From a virus, in the IMG/VR virus record IMGVR_UViG_3300014914_000500, positions 1 to 23,031 of that record: a DNA stretch of 23,031 bases; one strand, given 5' to 3'. The translations under genes and the position numbers were made by a program. How positions within the stretch are numbered: position 1 is the first letter of the stretch; each line of letters begins with the position of its first letter. Below the pieces are notes generated by a model. It was not told the origin of the DNA. It saw only the letters and a program-made list of their open reading frames with translations, and searched no databases. Of this stretch, positions 4,592 through 23,031 are shown piece by piece.

Positions 4592-5056
4592 ATGGGCAAG
4601 AAAAATAAAGACAAGACTTTTATAGAGATTATGGAAGAATGTAAAAATCATAGCAAAGAAGCACTCTGGGATTATATCACAGCTTTAAGAGGGCCTGATA
4701 TAATAGTTGCGTTAGGTGAAACTCATAGATGGATTAAAACAGTCTTTACTTATCCTTTAAGAGGGCAAAGTATTGTAGAAGAGTATTTGGTCTCATGGCC
4801 AAAAGATATTGAAGGCGTTTTTGAATACCTGAATAATGAAAAACATATCTATGAGTATTTTCATTATCTAAACCATATTGCAAAAATATGGCACTATTTT
4901 AACCCTAAGGTTGAATATGTTATGTATACTTTATTTCGTGAAGGCGGAGACCTTAATGAAGAACAAATTAAGGACTTAGCTCGTAAATATAAAAAATATG
5001 TAGATGAATGGTTAAATAGTGAAACAGTAATTAATCAAAAAGAAGGGAGGAAATAA
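4592..5056 (+). CDS. Unknown protein, first of a tandem paralogue pair
   Basis: A 154-residue product starting at the ATG at 4592, chosen because AAGGAGAGG lies just upstream and because the start then aligns with the next gene. It begins MGKKNKDKTFIEIMEECK and is rich in aromatic residues, mostly alpha-helical in appearance. The following gene starts with a very similar segment and also shares the T-PL-G motif (TYPLRGQSI here, RTPLQGKDSI there), so the pair arose by tandem duplication. No conserved family, catalytic motif, signal peptide or membrane segment is recognised. It is the first gene behind the promoter at 4439 and overlaps the next start by one base. Confidence 0.8.
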   Translation: MGKKNKDKTFIEIMEECKNHSKEALWDYITALRGPDIIVALGETHRWIKTVFTYPLRGQSIVEEYLVSWPKDIEGVFEYLNNEKHIYEYFHYLNHIAKIWHYFNPKVEYVMYTLFREGGDLNEEQIKDLARKYKKYVDEWLNSETVINQKEGRK

Positions 5057-5808
5057 TGCAGAAAAAGAATAAAGATAAATCGTGGATAGAGATTTTTGAA
5101 GAATGCAAGCATGTAGAACATGCCGCCTTGGATTATTGTGAAGCATTAAGAGCATTTGATAAATATTTTGGCACACCAAATTTTATTACATCAGTATTTC
5201 GCACTCCTTTGCAAGGTAAAGACTCAATTGAAAATGAACATCACTGGTATAAATTTGGGTATTATCAGAAAGAACACATGGTGATAAATGCAATGAACCA
5301 AGCTTTGGATTGCTGGTATGATTTTGAAAATTATGCTCTTGCTTTGCAGGATTGTTGGCAACATTTTAATCTACCAGTAAAAATAGCCATTCAAAATCTA
5401 GAACGAGCATGGATTAACCATCATTCCCAAGAAACAAAGAAAAGTGTCGCAAGAGAATATCTGAAAATGGTGGATGTTTGGATGAACTCAACAAAAGTTT
5501 TAGAAGATGAACAACGAAGAATAGACAGAGAAAGTGAATATTTAAAGGCTTATTTTACAGCTTTGCAGGAAATATGTGAATATTATAAATCAACAAAGGA
5601 AGAAAAACACTTCCAGCTTATGTTAGCAGGGATAAAAGATAGAGATTGTTGGATTTTATCCAATGATAAAGACCAAATAAGTAAAGAGCTTCATTCCAAA
5701 GTAATCACTCTAGAAGACGTGAAAAATCATTTCATTTTACGAGATAAAAGAAAACCTTTAATAATTGACCCAACTATTTGGTGTGAGTTATTAAAGAAAT
5801 TAGCATAG
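5056..5808 (+). CDS. Unknown protein, second of a tandem paralogue pair
   Basis: A 250-residue helical protein, starting at an ATG that shares one base with the preceding TAA. Residues 1-155 are paralogous to the preceding gene (KKNKDKSWIEIFEECK at the N-terminus, WMNS near the domain end in place of WLNS). An extra C-terminal ~95 residues have no counterpart there. It is rich in Trp, His and Glu. No recognised domain. GGGAGG precedes the start. The duplication followed by C-terminal extension suggests diverged roles, but no function can be read. Confidence 0.8.
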   Translation: MQKKNKDKSWIEIFEECKHVEHAALDYCEALRAFDKYFGTPNFITSVFRTPLQGKDSIENEHHWYKFGYYQKEHMVINAMNQALDCWYDFENYALALQDCWQHFNLPVKIAIQNLERAWINHHSQETKKSVAREYLKMVDVWMNSTKVLEDEQRRIDRESEYLKAYFTALQEICEYYKSTKEEKHFQLMLAGIKDRDCWILSNDKDQISKELHSKVITLEDVKNHFILRDKRKPLIIDPTIWCELLKKLA

Positions 5809-8964: not shown

Positions 8965-9696
8965 CTACAATGGCAATCTACTACTCTCCTTCATTATCCT
9001 TTCCTTGGCTATTTTGCAATATTCCTTGTTTATTTCTATTCCTATCCATCTACGATTTAGTCTTTCACAGGCTACTGCCGTCGTCCCTGAACCAAGAAAT
9101 GGGTCTAGAACTAAATCATTTTTGTCGGTAGAAACTAAAATTAAATGTTCCATAAGTTTTAGAGGTTTCTGGTGTATATGATATCTCTTATCCTTCTTGA
9201 AATTTCCTTGAGGTGTTGCATATTTTAATACATCAAAATTATTAAGACCTTCTACCTTTTAAGTTTGGAAGGCTTTCCTTTATGAAAATTTAAAATTTGC
9301 TCATAAACCGAAGTAAAATCGTAAGTTTTCTTTTTTTGTTCCACCAACTAAGTTTGGACGATACCAAATCAAAGTCTGATGAAGTTTGAACCCATTTTCT
9401 TCAAAACCACTAACAACTTTAGTAAGAGTTTTTTGAGCAGTCAAACAAAGGGCTCTTGAATTGTTTTTTGAAATTCTATACAATTCTGTTGAAACTAGAC
9501 CTACATTATAGAACTCATCTTTATAATCAATTCCATTCAACTCATTAGAATTAACTCCATACGGCGGGTCAGCCAATACTAAATCCACACTCTCTCTCGG
9601 AAATCCCTTCATTACCTCCAAACAATCCCCGCAATACAAAACTCCATTACTCGTTTGAAAGTAAATATTCTTCTTCGGAAACTTATCCTTCCACAT
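8965..9696 (-). pseudogene. DNA adenine/cytosine-N4 methyltransferase, broken by two frameshifts
   Basis: The frame encodes a beta-class amino-methyltransferase (motif order IV then I). DPPYG is at residues 43-47 and DPFLGSGTT lies in the C-terminal part, preceded by HQKPLKLMEHLI and followed by GIEINKEYCKIAKERI. It methylates an exocyclic amino group using S-adenosylmethionine; the target sequence cannot be read. The frame breaks twice. A T7 run at 9331-9337 (A7 in the coding sense) behaves as if one base too long. A T4 run at 9257-9260 behaves as if one base too short. Correcting both restores one 243-residue protein with no other stop. No partner restriction enzyme is present, so it may protect phage DNA. 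Either recently inactivated or a sequence error. Confidence 0.85.
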
Positions 9697-9710: not shown

Positions 9711-9823
9711 CCATAAAAAAATTAAAAAAAATTTAAAAAAATTTTGAGGGGGACCAGCTTTAAGCCCTTTTGCCCTTCATTCCGAATCTTTCGGTAAATT
9801 GGGCACTTACGATTACCTTCTAC
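9711..9823. other. AT-rich non-coding stretch with short hairpins
   Basis: Starts with runs of A and T (9714-9752), then GGGGGACCAGC and a small CCGAA/TTCGG hairpin near 9782-9794. No open frame with a ribosome site is seen on either strand. It leads directly into the left 37 bp repeat array. Confidence 0.6.
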
Positions 9824-10000
9824 AACCCTTGTCATTATTGCGTTTCAGAGGCATATCTAGAAGCCTTGATATTGTAGGGTTTCATGAGTGCCTTTGAAGT
9901 GCTTGATATTGCTATGTTTGAGAGGCGGTCTTGTAAGCCTTGCCAGTTCTATATTTCAAAGCCTATGCTAGAAGGCTTGTCAATGCTATGTTTCAGACTA
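9824..10000. repeat. Left 37 bp tandem array (5 diverged units)
   Basis: The CTTG core recurs with its G at 9831, 9868, 9905, 9942 and 9979, exactly 37 bp apart each time. The unit pattern is (A/G)AxCCTTG-(A/T)-rich-TATGTTTCA followed by about 13 variable bases. The units are diverged, not identical, and there is no constant-repeat/unique-spacer alternation, so it is not a CRISPR array. 37 is not a multiple of three and no frame runs through it. The same unit recurs in the larger array at 11149-11440. Confidence 0.8.
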
Positions 10001-10258
10001 AGCCATTTTGGCAATCTGAAGGCTAAATAATAACCAAGATAAAGCTATAAACAACCATGTTTTTTCTGAAGGAAGTAAGATATTCAATCAATCTGATTGC
10101 AATCCTAAAGCAACTTACCAAGTCTAAGCATAAAATTTTTCACTGCTAAAAATATTTTTTTCTACCTAAACGCCTTAAAATGCACTTTCTTATGATTTAT
10201 TGGCAACTTCCATTGAAAAACTTTTTTAAAAAAATCTATTTTTCTTTGAAAAAACCTC
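10001..10258. other. AT-rich upstream region of promoter P1
   Basis: Non-coding. It contains long A/T runs (10150-10162, 10222-10245) and the sequence GGCAACTTCC-A-TTGAAAAA at 10202-10220. A near-identical block, GGCAACTTCC-T-TTGAAAAA, lies upstream of promoter P2 at 11850. This shared block suggests the two promoter regions are duplicates. Confidence 0.6.
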
Positions 10259-10287
10259 TTGACAAGATAATTAAACTGTGTTAGGAT
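10259..10287 (+). promoter_or_regulatory. Promoter P1
   Basis: TTGACA at 10259-10264, a 17 bp spacer AGATAATTAAACTGTGT, and TAGGAT at 10282-10287. The AATTAAACTG in the spacer recurs in P2 and P3 in the same register. The leader that follows contains ATGAGAAAGGGAGG, also conserved in P2. It drives the three small genes that end at the terminator at 10967. Confidence 0.75.
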
Positions 10288-10317
10288 TGATAAAAATGAG
10301 AAAGGGAGGTAGGTAAG

Positions 10318-10443
10318 ATGAGAAAGGACAAAAAACAAAATGTAAAACCAGCCGTTTACCAGTTTAAAAATGGCCGCTGGGTTAATGTAACCCAGTCAGG
10401 CCGTCCGAGGTTCTTTAATCCTAGGACGGGCAAGTGGCAATAA
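10318..10443 (+). CDS. 41-residue basic mini-protein
   Basis: ATG at 10318 lies 9 nt after GGGAGG in the P1 leader. The product is small and basic; its core KNGRWVNVTQSGRPRFFNP followed by RTGKW has a regular pattern of aromatic and Gly/Arg residues that looks like a two-strand beta-hairpin. No family recognised. Strong ribosome site and operon position support expression. Possibly a host-takeover or regulatory peptide, but that is a guess. Confidence 0.72.
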   Translation: MRKDKKQNVKPAVYQFKNGRWVNVTQSGRPRFFNPRTGKWQ

Positions 10444-10456
10444 GGGAGGTGATAAA

Positions 10457-10597
10457 ATGAGAAAGATAGCAGTAGTAGATACATTTAAGGAAGCTGAAGA
10501 CTTGGCCGCTGAACTCATGGCCAGCGGTCATTATGAAGACGCTTCCATCATGAAAGATGGAGGCGTTTACGAGGTCTGGGTTGAAGATAAAGACTAA
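10457..10597 (+). CDS. 46-residue acidic mini-protein
   Basis: ATG at 10457 follows GGGAGGTG. The sequence starts with MRKIAVVDTFKEAEDLAAEL and ends with GVYEVWVEDKD. This looks like a strand-helix-strand mini-domain with a buried Ala/Leu helix. It lies 13 nt after the previous stop and 11 nt before the next start, so it belongs to the P1 cassette. No known family. Confidence 0.75.
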   Translation: MRKIAVVDTFKEAEDLAAELMASGHYEDASIMKDGGVYEVWVEDKD

Positions 10598-10608
10598 AGG
10601 AGGTCAAA

Positions 10609-10947
10609 ATGGCAAAGTTAAACGGTAAAGGGTTTAAAGTTGTTAAAAGGCTAGTCAATCCCAAGACTGGCCTTTCTATTGCTATCAGGTCAGACGGGGT
10701 TGTTTTAAAGAAAACATTCAATGGATGGAAAAGATATAGACGGCTAAAGAAAGAAGTTACTCCTGAGCAAGCAACACAACACCTAATGAATTTGGGCTAT
10801 ATAGAAGGCGTCGCACCTGAGTTTAGCACTCTGATTAAATGGCAAAATGAAGGCATAGCTAGAACACCTGATGGCTGCCGTGTAGAACCAGACGGCACTT
10901 GTCAGCACGGATATAAATCTTGGTTGCTTATTTATGGATTATTGTAA
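10609..10947 (+). CDS. Phage protein with C-terminal CxVEPDGxCxHG...SWLL motif
   Basis: A 112-residue protein behind AAAGGAGG. The N-terminal ~70 residues are basic and may fold as strands plus a helix. The C-terminus carries DGCRVEPDGTCQHG followed by SWLLIYGLL. I know this short motif from the C-termini of many small bacterial and phage proteins of unknown role; its two Cys and one His could bind metal. It is the last gene of the P1 cassette and is followed 19 nt later by an intrinsic terminator. Confidence 0.8.
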   Translation: MAKLNGKGFKVVKRLVNPKTGLSIAIRSDGVVLKKTFNGWKRYRRLKKEVTPEQATQHLMNLGYIEGVAPEFSTLIKWQNEGIARTPDGCRVEPDGTCQHGYKSWLLIYGLL

Positions 10948-10966
10948 GCTAACAAATTACCTCCAC

Positions 10967-10996
10967 GCCCAGGTCTTCACAGCCTGGGCTTTTTTT
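10967..10996 (+). terminator. Intrinsic terminator of the P1 cassette
   Basis: A perfect 7 bp stem, GCCCAGG at 10967-10973 with CCTGGGC at 10983-10989, a 9 nt loop and a T7 tract. It closes the three-gene cassette; non-coding DNA follows. Confidence 0.88.
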
Positions 10997-11148
10997 ATGC
11001 CTTGACTTTCTGTTTGGCCTTCCCAGCTTTTTTTTCTAGCCTTCCTTGCTTAGCCTTGCTTCTTATTTCACCTAGCCTGCCTTAGCTTAGCCTTGCTTCC
11101 TATCTTCCTTTAGCCTTTCCAAACCACCTCCAAAACTACCCACTTCTA
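10997..11148. other. Pyrimidine-rich non-coding stretch with degenerate 37 bp periodicity
   Basis: T/C-rich sequence with no supported gene. CTTAGCCTTGCTTC occurs at 11049 and again at 11086, exactly 37 bp apart, and GCCTT occurs repeatedly. It looks like a decayed outer part of the right array. Confidence 0.55.
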
Positions 11149-11440
11149 AAACCCTTGCTATTATTGCCTTCCAGACACCCCTTTGAAAGCCTTATCATTA
11201 TTGCCTTTTAGCCGTGCCTCTCAAACCCTTGTCAATCCTATATCCTAGAACTACCCTTGAAAGCCTTATCAATCCTACATTTCAAGCACGCACCTAAAAC
11301 CCTTGTCAATCCTATGTTTCAGCTATGCCCTTGAAAGCCTTATTATTCCTGCATCCTAGAGCATACCTCTGAAACCCTTGATGCTGTAGGCTTTCAAAGC
11401 ACCTCTGAAACCCTTGATATTCCTGCGTTTCAAGGGGTCT
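11149..11440. repeat. Right 37 bp tandem array (8 units)
   Basis: Units start at 11149, 11186, 11223, 11260, 11297, 11334, 11372 and 11408, giving spacings of 37, 37, 37, 37, 37, 38 and 36. The first six alternate between AAACCCTTG and AAAGCCTTA starts, which implies a 74 bp higher-order unit. Within a unit the order is AAAxCCTTx-TCAATCCTA-xxTTTCAxG, followed by about 13 variable bases. TTGAAA at the unit boundary and TTTCAA inside it make an imperfect dyad; in the unit at 11257-11283 it is perfect (CTTGAAA and TTTCAAG, 13 nt apart). It is not coding and not CRISPR. It could be binding sites for an initiator or partition protein, or a repetitive structured RNA. Confidence 0.85.
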
Positions 11441-11456
11441 ATTTTTGGGCATTTTG

Positions 11457-11520
11457 GGCTATTTTCAATAGGCAATAGGGTAATAGTAGAATAGTTAACA
11501 GCGTAATAGGCAAAATAGCC
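11457..11520. repeat. Inverted repeat enclosing AATAG repeats
   Basis: GGCTATTTT at 11457-11465 pairs with AAAATAGCC at 11512-11520. The intervening sequence contains five copies of AATAG at irregular spacing. There is no T-tract, so it is not a terminator. Function unknown. Confidence 0.6.
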
Positions 11521-11526
11521 GTTCTT

Positions 11527-11646
11527 CACGCACTCATTCAGACAAAAACGCCTTCATATTTTAATTGTGAGCAAGTTTTAAAGGCCAAGGCATATAAAAT
11601 ATCCTGCTGAGGCTTAAACCTTGCTCACAGGCCAATTATGTGCGTG
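11527..11646. other. Nested inverted repeats, possible structured RNA or cruciform
   Basis: Three nested complementary pairs: CACGCAC (11527-11533) with GTGCGTG (11640-11646); TAATT (11562-11566) with AATTA (11634-11638); and GTGAGCAAG (11567-11575) with CTTGCTCAC (11620-11628). The last is extended after one mismatch by TTTAA (11577-11581) with TTAAA (11614-11618). The pairing is too extensive to be likely by chance. No promoter was identified nearby and no gene overlaps it. Confidence 0.6.
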
Positions 11647-11918
11647 TTTCTCTCAAAGCCTTGATATTCAAGCAATTCAAGGCCGTCCTAACACTCAAAC
11701 AACCTATTCTGTTACATCTGCATTCAATAGCAACAAACATAGAACCTCACGCATAAGCTAGCAAGTGAAGCCTACACACAAAGGCACTCTAACACAAAAA
11801 CTTTTTTTCATTTTCTTAAAAATTTTTTTCAGTTAAAAAGGCCATAACAGGCAACTTCCTTTGAAAAATCGGGCAGTTAAAGAAATTTAAATGAATGTGA
11901 TTTTTTTCATAAAAAGGC
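11647..11918. other. Non-coding leader region of P2
   Basis: Contains one isolated copy of the 37 bp unit core (AAAGCCTTGATATTCAAG at 11655-11672), then A/T-rich runs (11800-11830), then the block GGCAACTTCC at 11850 that is also present upstream of P1. No gene is supported. Confidence 0.55.
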
Positions 11919-11947
11919 TTGACAAAAAAATTAAACTATGCTATAGA
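11919..11947 (+). promoter_or_regulatory. Promoter P2
   Basis: TTGACA at 11919-11924, 17 bp spacer AAAAAATTAAACTATGC, and TATAGA at 11942-11947. AATTAAACT matches P1 in position. The leader ATGAGAAAGGGAGG at 11957-11970 is identical to that of P1. It drives the early gene series beginning at 11979. Confidence 0.78.
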
Positions 11948-11978
11948 ATAGGTATCATGAGAAAGGGAGGGAAGGAAA

Positions 11979-21783: not shown

Positions 21784-22329
21784 ATGAAAACACTTCTCAC
21801 CCCCACAATATTTCTTCATGAAAACAATGAAGAAGAATGTATCATACCAACAGACCAAGGTGGTTTTATTTATTCCAAAAAACAAATAGAAACTTGGTTT
21901 AAACAAATTATGAAATTCTATGAGCTTTATAGTGATGAAGAAATAAAAGAACATAATAATGACCTTTTTAAACAATACAATTCTTCTTATACAAACTCAG
22001 AGAATACAACAAAAAAACCAAAAAAAGGATTTGTCTATTTTATAAAAGCCGAAAATGGATTAATAAAAATCGGACAAACAAAAGATTTATCAAATAGATA
22101 TAAACAAATACAACATAGTGCCCTATTAAAAACCGAATTATTATTTGCAATTGAATCTAATGATGTCATAAAGTTAGAAGAGAAACTTCATCATTTTTTT
22201 GAAAACAAAATGGAAAAGGGAGAATGGTTTGCACTTTCGGATGGAGACACTGAAATAATAAAAAATGCAGCCAAAAAGAAAGGATTAAAAATAATTACCA
22301 TAGAAGGAGAAGGCAATGAAAGAGAATGA
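21784..22329 (+). CDS. GIY-YIG/T5orf172-like protein
   Basis: A 181-residue protein. The C-terminal half (residues 82-151) carries the T5orf172-type GIY-YIG domain: GFVYFIKAE, then LIKIGQTKDLSNRYKQIQ, KLEEKLHHFF and GEWFAL. In such proteins the GIY-YIG core may be a nuclease, but in many phage versions activity is unproven. The N-terminal ~80 residues look like a separate domain with a Thr/Asn/Ser-rich linker. Its start follows the terminator by 18 nt and the ribosome site is a weak GGGGAG. It overlaps the replication gene by 14 nt. Confidence 0.82.
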   Translation: MKTLLTPTIFLHENNEEECIIPTDQGGFIYSKKQIETWFKQIMKFYELYSDEEIKEHNNDLFKQYNSSYTNSENTTKKPKKGFVYFIKAENGLIKIGQTKDLSNRYKQIQHSALLKTELLFAIESNDVIKLEEKLHHFFENKMEKGEWFALSDGDTEIIKNAAKKKGLKIITIEGEGNERE

Positions 22330-23031
22330 AATAAATGAACAATGTAAAAAACTAATTGGCGTTGAATTTCCTGGTAATACTGTTCCCTTAAGTTGGTATA
22401 GATATATAAAAACTCAAAACGGAACAGTGAATCATGTAGCTATAACATTATTGGCGGACATTGTTTTTTGGTATAGGCCAGTTGAAGAAAGAAATCCAGA
22501 AACAGGCGAACCAATTGGTTATAGACAAAAGTTTAAAGCTAATAAATTACAAAAGAATTACCAGTCTTACGTGGATTTATTTGGTTTCACAAAAATACAG
22601 GTTAAAAGAGCTTTTGATGATTTGATAAGATTAAAACTTGTTAAAAGAGAATTTAAAACAATAGAAACTAACGAAGGTTTAAAACTTTCAAATGTCATGT
22701 TTATAGAACCAATTATTGACAATGTCCTTAAAATTACATACGACCAACGCAAATCTAAAAAAACCTCCTCTTTACCTCAAAATAACTACCTTCCTACTTC
22801 AAAATCATTACCTCCTAACTCCGAAGTAAATACCTCTTTACTTCAAAGTAACCACCCCCCTACTTCAAAGTTACCACCTCCTTCTCCTGAAGTTAAGACA
22901 AATACAGAAAATACTACAGAAACTACTACAAAGAATACTACAGATATAAAATCTTCTTTAAATAATTCTTTTAGTAATAATATAAATAATATAAATAATA
23001 ATAATCTATATAGCTCTAAAGAACCAAATAA
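22316..23031 (+). CDS. Phage replication initiator, partial at the right edge
   Basis: ATG at 22316 follows GGAGAAGG. The open frame runs off the window. Residues ~1-140 look like a winged helix-turn-helix replisome organiser: VAITLLADIVFWYRP, YRQKFKANKLQKNYQSYVDL, then GFTKIQVKRAFDDLIRL. A Thr/Ser/Pro/Asn-rich linker follows (repeats of PTSK and TTETTTKNTTD), as is common in phage initiators before a C-terminal helicase-loader domain. The linker DNA contains iteron-like repeats, as in lambda-O-type origins. It probably recruits host helicase or primase. Identity to a named family is unverified. Confidence 0.75.
   Translation, partial: MKENEINEQCKKLIGVEFPGNTVPLSWYRYIKTQNGTVNHVAITLLADIVFWYRPVEERNPETGEPIGYRQKFKANKLQKNYQSYVDLFGFTKIQVKRAFDDLIRLKLVKREFKTIETNEGLKLSNVMFIEPIIDNVLKITYDQRKSKKTSSLPQNNYLPTSKSLPPNSEVNTSLLQSNHPPTSKLPPPSPEVKTNTENTTETTTKNTTDIKSSLNNSFSNNINNINNNNLYSSKEPN
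22773..22883. repeat. Iteron-like repeats inside the initiator gene, candidate origin
   Basis: Five related units of about 22 bp start at 22773, 22795, 22816, 22839 and 22861. The pattern is TACTTCAAAGTAACCACC, with TACCTC, AACTCC or ATTACC variants. Spacings of 21-23 bp are not multiples of three, so selection appears to act on the DNA and not only on the protein. Two helical turns per unit suits initiator binding on one face. An A/T-rich segment follows at 22935-23020, as expected for an unwinding region. Confidence 0.6.

Follow-up and report, generated by a model that had tools for sequence, protein, structure and literature searches.

The two tandem arrays of 37-bp units in this phage DNA are best explained as double-stranded DNA binding platforms in an early control region, made of putative regulator sites, a reading to which we give close to, and slightly less than, an even chance. 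The arrays retain their register in close relatives, their motif changes slowly, and sister phages have a single similar site next to an early promoter. The window, that is, the whole stretch of 23,031 nucleotides analyzed, is an IMG/VR virus record of 23 kb with genes for a portal protein, a large terminase, RecT, a PD-(D/E)XK nuclease, and an O-like replication initiator. The close relatives G001, G002, and G003 and the more distant G004 were found by scans with the terminase and one cassette protein, and eight further phages (G006–G013) by a scan with a protein from the end of G002. No relative turned up among 84,980 prokaryote genomes in two scans based on alignments of terminase and RecT, and a two-unit degenerate pattern searched over IMG/VR matched the three known relatives and two G+C-rich false ones.

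Units and spacing of the arrays

The positions of the arrays and the surrounding features are listed in Table 1. The left array has four intervals of 37 bp, and the right array has five intervals of 37 bp followed by 38 and 36 bp; the unit starts confirm the numbers of units and the spacing, including the 38/36 step, given in an earlier note on this DNA. Both arrays lie in one orientation and are only about 67% identical to each other. An isolated 14th unit, overlooked in that note, is 82% identical to the last right unit. The autocorrelation at 37 is 0.515 in the left array and 0.519 in the right core, and that at 74 is 0.586 in the right core. The values at 37, and also at 74 and 111, lie far over those of 500 first-order Markov shuffles (maximum 0.43 for the left array and 0.40 for the right core), none of which reaches the observed value. 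The 37-bp period is above background in the shuffled control that had been proposed as a check.

Table 1. Features of the array region in the window
Feature	Position	Strand	Remarks
Left array	9818..10002	+	5 units, 37 bp; starts 9818, 9855, 9892, 9929, 9966
P1, promoter-like TTGACA-17-TAGGAT of the cassette	10259..10287	+	About 260 bp downstream of the left array
Cassette gene 1, 41 aa	10318..10443	+	Homologue in G009
Cassette gene 2, 46 aa	10457..10597	+	Near-identical in G002; homologues in G003 and G012
Cassette gene 3, 112 aa	10609..10947	+	78% identity in G001; elsewhere different or absent
Intrinsic terminator closing the cassette	10967..10989	+	Also in array-less G009 and G012
Right array	11144..11439	+	8 units; starts 11144, 11181, 11218, 11255, 11292, 11329, 11367, 11403
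Dyad element "A," about 100 bp	11553..11653	+	Outer arms CATATTT/AAATATG and TGAGC/GCTCA; conserved across the phage group
Isolated 14th unit	11650..11682	+	Immediately 3' of the dyad element; corresponds in position to the single site in sisters
P2, promoter-like (TTGACA, TATAGAAT) of the long early operon	11919..11950	+	From sequence; aligned in relatives

A step of 37 bp is 3.5 helical turns, which places adjacent units on opposite faces of the helix and every second unit (74 bp) on the same face. The alternation of AAACCCTTG and AAAGCCTTA that had been described for the right array follows this 74-bp step in units 1–6, but the last two units are both AAACCCTTG, and unit 2 in the relatives reads AAAGCCTTG. 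No long reading frame crosses either array. A coding repeat is rejected, since a period of 37 is not divisible by 3 and each array has stop codons in every one of its six frames. Two other loci, L053 and L054, have 36-bp periods that are coding repeats. Upstream of the right array, the window has two copies of GCTTAGCCTTGCTTCYTAT at 11048–11103, 37 bp apart, which are perhaps decayed units; the copies are partly found in G002 and are missing in G001 and G003.

The unit motif should be described differently from before. TTGAAA/TTTCAA dyads had been taken as marks of the units, but the strict form TTGAAA-N13-17-TTTCAA is found in one unit only (11257). A better description is a unit of about 33 bp with AANCCTTG and then TTTCA about 19 bp (about two helical turns) downstream. 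The 13 array units of the window score 29.8–41.2 bits on their own matrix, and no score above 13.0 occurs on the plus strand of the window outside the arrays and the lone unit. The columns A7, T12, T13, T19, and T26 are invariant, and T4, A8, C11, A17, and A30 are near-invariant.

Conservation of the units in relatives

All 13 units are found in the same register in both G002 and G003, the 38/36 step included. In G001, the eight right units are all kept and the left array is damaged (2 units); the lone unit is kept in all three phages. The identity of the right array to the three relatives is 90.5–94.9%, and that of the neighboring non-coding stretches (11440–11540 and 11683–11800) is 84–89%, below the right array. 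Over the 37 columns, the more information a column holds among units, the less it differs between orthologous units (Spearman −0.69, P 2e-6). Since the columns conserved among units diverge least between phages, the motif of the arrays is maintained by selection.

The last right unit and its 3' flank (11408–11446) match Streptococcus thermophilus phages and small plasmids over 40 bp at 90% identity, with E values of 5e-4 and 2e-3, which are borderline. Narrower searches add pneumococcal satellite phages and other streptococcal plasmids. The streptococcal sites are single-copy, non-coding, and located near promoters or rep genes. The match fits a DNA control site of mobile elements, although at these values homology is not proven.

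Promoters and the cassette between the arrays

Each array lies upstream of one promoter of the same paralogous family, which speaks for binding platforms. P1, which is conserved in the relatives, is paralogous to P2 (repeat families D5, D6, and D9); P2 follows the right array at about 480 bp and the lone unit at about 240 bp. The distances should be noted, since they speak against the platforms: the arrays are 250–700 bp from the promoters, which is far for direct polymerase contact. Neither is the distance fixed, since in G003 the left array is kept and the stretch from it to P1 (L007, about 5020–5450) is longer by several hundred bases, which hold a degenerate repeat (ACAGGACATTC/GGCCAT). 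The loss of the promoter-proximal site in the window, where the lone unit is about 240 bp from the −35 box, and the lack of a dyad element at P1 also weigh against this reading.

The three-gene cassette that had been proposed is real as an operon, with a promoter, three small ORFs (41, 46, and 112 aa), and a terminator. In an alignment of four phages, the flanks bearing the arrays are conserved and the small genes between them are mosaic. It had been suggested that a lack of the arrays in relatives, with no effect on the flanking genes, would speak against their significance. The outcome is mixed: four phages retain the array despite the mosaic cassette, and the sisters G009 and G012 retain the cassette type and its terminator without the array. 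Because the cassette varies where the arrays are kept and its type is kept where they are missing, the presence of the arrays does not depend on the cassette between them. They go with the early promoter region, in which the sisters carry the site once. Further upstream, at 8965–9696 on the minus strand, the window has a DNA methylase (N6_N4_Mtase) gene in two frames, apparently broken, which is missing at the corresponding place in G001 and G003.

A single site in sister phages

Five sisters (G006, G007, G008, G009, and G012) have no arrays. In all five, the order is the dyad element, one unit-like site, about 20 bp, and the −35 box (TTGACA), so that a unit-like site has a constant position with respect to a promoter, the arrangement that marks phage operator arrays. 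When the sites were scored with a matrix built only from the array units of the window, the sister site ranked 1 of about 120,000 positions in G007, 1 of about 115,000 in G008, 4 of about 51,000 in G012, and 5 of about 53,000 in G009. The site in G006 is decayed (rank 222). The ranks give a combined P of 8e-8, a value that is overstated, since the five sisters are related and are not independent data points. The sites lie at roughly −83 to −51 from the transcription start of the early promoter, as estimated from the −35 box. HTH_3 matches occur in several relatives, with no link to the unit site.

The dyad element occurs as two direct copies in each of G002, G006, G008, G009, and G012, and one copy lies just upstream of the promoter corresponding to P2. 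The other, in several phages, is directly upstream of a gene start near replication genes. The arms TGAGC/GCTCA show compensatory changes. Besides the window, the element is located at L026 2469–2569 and in L087, L088, L093, L080, L078, L084, L089, and L095; the elements of the window and L007 have no match in Rfam. Where the window has the right array, 5' of the dyad element, G009 and G012 have clustered GTTAACG/AATAACG motifs, and G008 has a 17-bp period (TTTAGAATG...) (loci L070, L071, and L072).

Since the lone unit at 11650 and the single site of the sisters share the place after the dyad element, the arrays are read as a multiplied promoter-upstream site. Each unit of about 33 bp would be a copy of one site that is present once in the sisters. 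In the subclade of the window, the site may have been multiplied, mostly in tandem steps of 37 or 74 bp, to give five units before P1 and eight units and a stray one before P2. A phage or host DNA-binding protein would most likely load cooperatively along the array and thereby set early transcription. The effect on the paralogous promoters P1 and P2 could be activation or repression, exerted through looping or titration.

A replication origin as the main alternative

The main rival to DNA platforms for a regulator is a replication origin, in which the arrays would be iterons for the O-like initiator (22316–23029) or a host initiator and the non-coding region of about 1 kb would be the origin. 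We regard it as possible but unlikely. The region does look like an origin, in that a single non-coding block combines arrays of repeats with a long dyad, AT-rich DNA, a neighboring promoter, and AATAG repeats at 11466–11512. The two direct copies of the dyad element flank early/replication genes in several phages, the streptococcal matches include small plasmids with rep, and the window itself encodes the O-like initiator. However, iterons of 22 bp lie within the O-like gene of the window itself (22762–22893); they are a candidate lambda-type origin that would be sufficient, and they are unlike the 37-bp unit. These iterons are not decisive against an origin at the arrays, because the O-like gene of G002 does not have them. 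The sisters, which have the same replication genes and no arrays, also argue against an origin.

Arrays as possible templates of repeated RNAs

It had also been suggested that the arrays encode a repetitive RNA, and they might be transcribed into repeated small RNAs, either TIGR-type guides or ToxI-type (pseudo-ToxI) decoys. This is improbable. The period of 36–37 agrees with those of TIGR and ToxI units (both 36 nt), and a true TIGR-Tas locus is found in the relative G004 (IMGVR_UViG_3300021498_000001; L029:15723–17570), where a protein of about 300 aa that matches IS110-type/TasH chains in PDB precedes an array of 36-bp dual repeats whose spacers are unique. The left array on the plus strand and the right array on both strands fold better than shuffled sequences (z about −3). 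However, the predicted pairs show no covariation and are broken by most changes; the consensus fold energy is only −23.7 and compensatory pairs are 1/50 in an alignment that covers right units 1–7 at most, the relatives used being slightly shortened. Arm pairing within and between units is no better than in shuffled sequences. Rfam gives nothing at E 1 in the array region, and no promoter or terminator bounds the arrays.

The TIGR arrays of TIGR-Tas systems consist of two alternating 8–12-nt repeats that share box D/box C, and of unique spacers of about 9 nt (PMC12045711). The tandem unit of about 36 nt and the occurrence in phages, including the relative G004, are common to these systems and the arrays of the window, but the latter have neither unique spacers nor box C/D half-repeats, and no Tas is found in the array-bearing phages. 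The autocorrelation at 18, expected from a half-unit repeat, is 0.26–0.28, equal to background, versus 0.41 in G004. The box D–box C G.C pair is kept in 7/13 and 5/13 units, versus 14/14 and 13/14 in G004. The block 13–21, which would be a spacer, is not unique, with 60% identity among units (30% expected); the block 31–3 alone is spacer-like (35% identity among units). Tas matches were obtained only in G004, and none in G000–G003 and G005–G013, which are incomplete records. None of the three marks of TIGR membership, namely half-repeat boxes, unique spacers, and an adjacent tas (Nop-domain) gene, is found here. A stand-alone, guide-fixed derivative that is TIGR-like and served by Tas in trans from the rest of the genome or the host is highly improbable, though the dual-block geometry of about 36 nt, the TIGR-Tas phage group, and the contigs ending near the tas position bear on it; G002 ends a few kb before the tas position of G004. 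A period of about 36–37 bp does not by itself make a phage repeat a guide-RNA array, even when a relative has TIGR-Tas, and the analysis supplies criteria that tell guide-RNA arrays from arrays of 37-bp DNA sites.

The pseudo-ToxI repeats of PhiTE (PMC3475682) are likewise intergenic phage repeats of about 36–37 nt. ToxI units are, however, near-identical RNA pseudoknots, whereas the units of the window are strongly diverged and accompanied by neither a ToxN nor an Rfam match; the ToxN search gave no match, though no control matched either.

Several further observations concern the TIGR-Tas loci, which are also found in L044 and L045. The phage TasA-like protein matches PDB TasH 21kl (E 1.5e-8). 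The phage TIGR array is a 36-bp dual repeat of about 24 units, with the edge AGCGAGCCA and the loop AGNYAACCA, and an MT-A70-like methyltransferase gene lies near the locus. A hairpin-like element (CTGGCC..TTTAAGGGCTTATGCCCACCAG) recurs between small genes in G004 (L038 402–430, 1074–1098, and 1610–1645; L030 11745–11785 and 12390–12435).

Less probable explanations

A neutral satellite, in which slippage-prone non-coding DNA has left the period as a relic, is quite improbable. The region does turn over, as seen in the unrelated repeat clusters there in other phages (TTAACG in G009 and G012, and the 17-bp period in G008). However, neutral slippage would not be expected to leave three phages with the same number of units in the same register, or a slow change specific to the motif, and the similar site at a fixed promoter position in the sisters is also against it. 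CRISPR had been dismissed earlier, and rightly so: the units are diverged throughout, conserved positions extend over most of the unit, and among the scanned proteins there is neither a cas effector nor an adaptation protein, a weak match to a Cas4/PD-(D/E)XK nuclease being the only one of this kind.

The phased sites upstream of promoters recall parC/tubC arrays, and a centromere-like array had been proposed. A partition site of a plasmid-like prophage state is now disfavored and has only a very small probability, since neither ParA (AAA_31, PF13614) nor ParB_N (PF02195) is matched in 13 related, incomplete records in a search that covered these two families and whose controls matched.

The least probable explanation is a recombination or packaging site, in which the arrays would serve cassette exchange or mark the terminase (cos/pac) site. 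In its favor, the genes enclosed by the arrays form a mosaic among relatives, and a matching motif in Streptococcus phage DT1 is found close to the end of the genome, 5' of the gene for the small terminase. Against it, the left and right arrays are only about 67% identical, and a cassette-exchange device is rejected on account of the cassette type and terminator of the array-less G009 and G012. The published cos site of DT1 is a different sequence that does not support this lead (PMC13376191), and the terminase gene of the window is about 6 kb from the nearer array.

Comparison with known DNA-site arrays

Iteron origins in or near phage O-like genes have regular repeats and AT-rich DNA, as in the phage of the window. 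The iterons in its own O-like gene are 22 bp long and unrelated in sequence to the 37-bp units. The site AAACCCTTGATATNNCTGNNTTTCNAAGGGG of Streptococcus plasmids, satellites, and cos-phages resembles the last right unit and shares its non-coding location, but it is present in a single copy, in contrast to the tandem arrays of the window.

Some phage regulators act on multi-operator arrays, e.g., the stoperators of mycobacteriophage L5 and the p6 sites of phi29. There, as here, one asymmetric or weakly dyadic site is present in many copies in non-coding DNA near early promoters. The sites of the window differ in being tandem at a near-fixed 37 bp, and the likeness is one of description. If the arrays are platforms of this type, they would offer a natural case of one promoter-upstream site multiplied into phased arrays, with the single copy kept by sisters, and the effect of site number on early control of the phage (or on origin firing) would be directly testable in this phage group. 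The arrays most likely belong to a known kind, that of multi-site regulatory or origin arrays.
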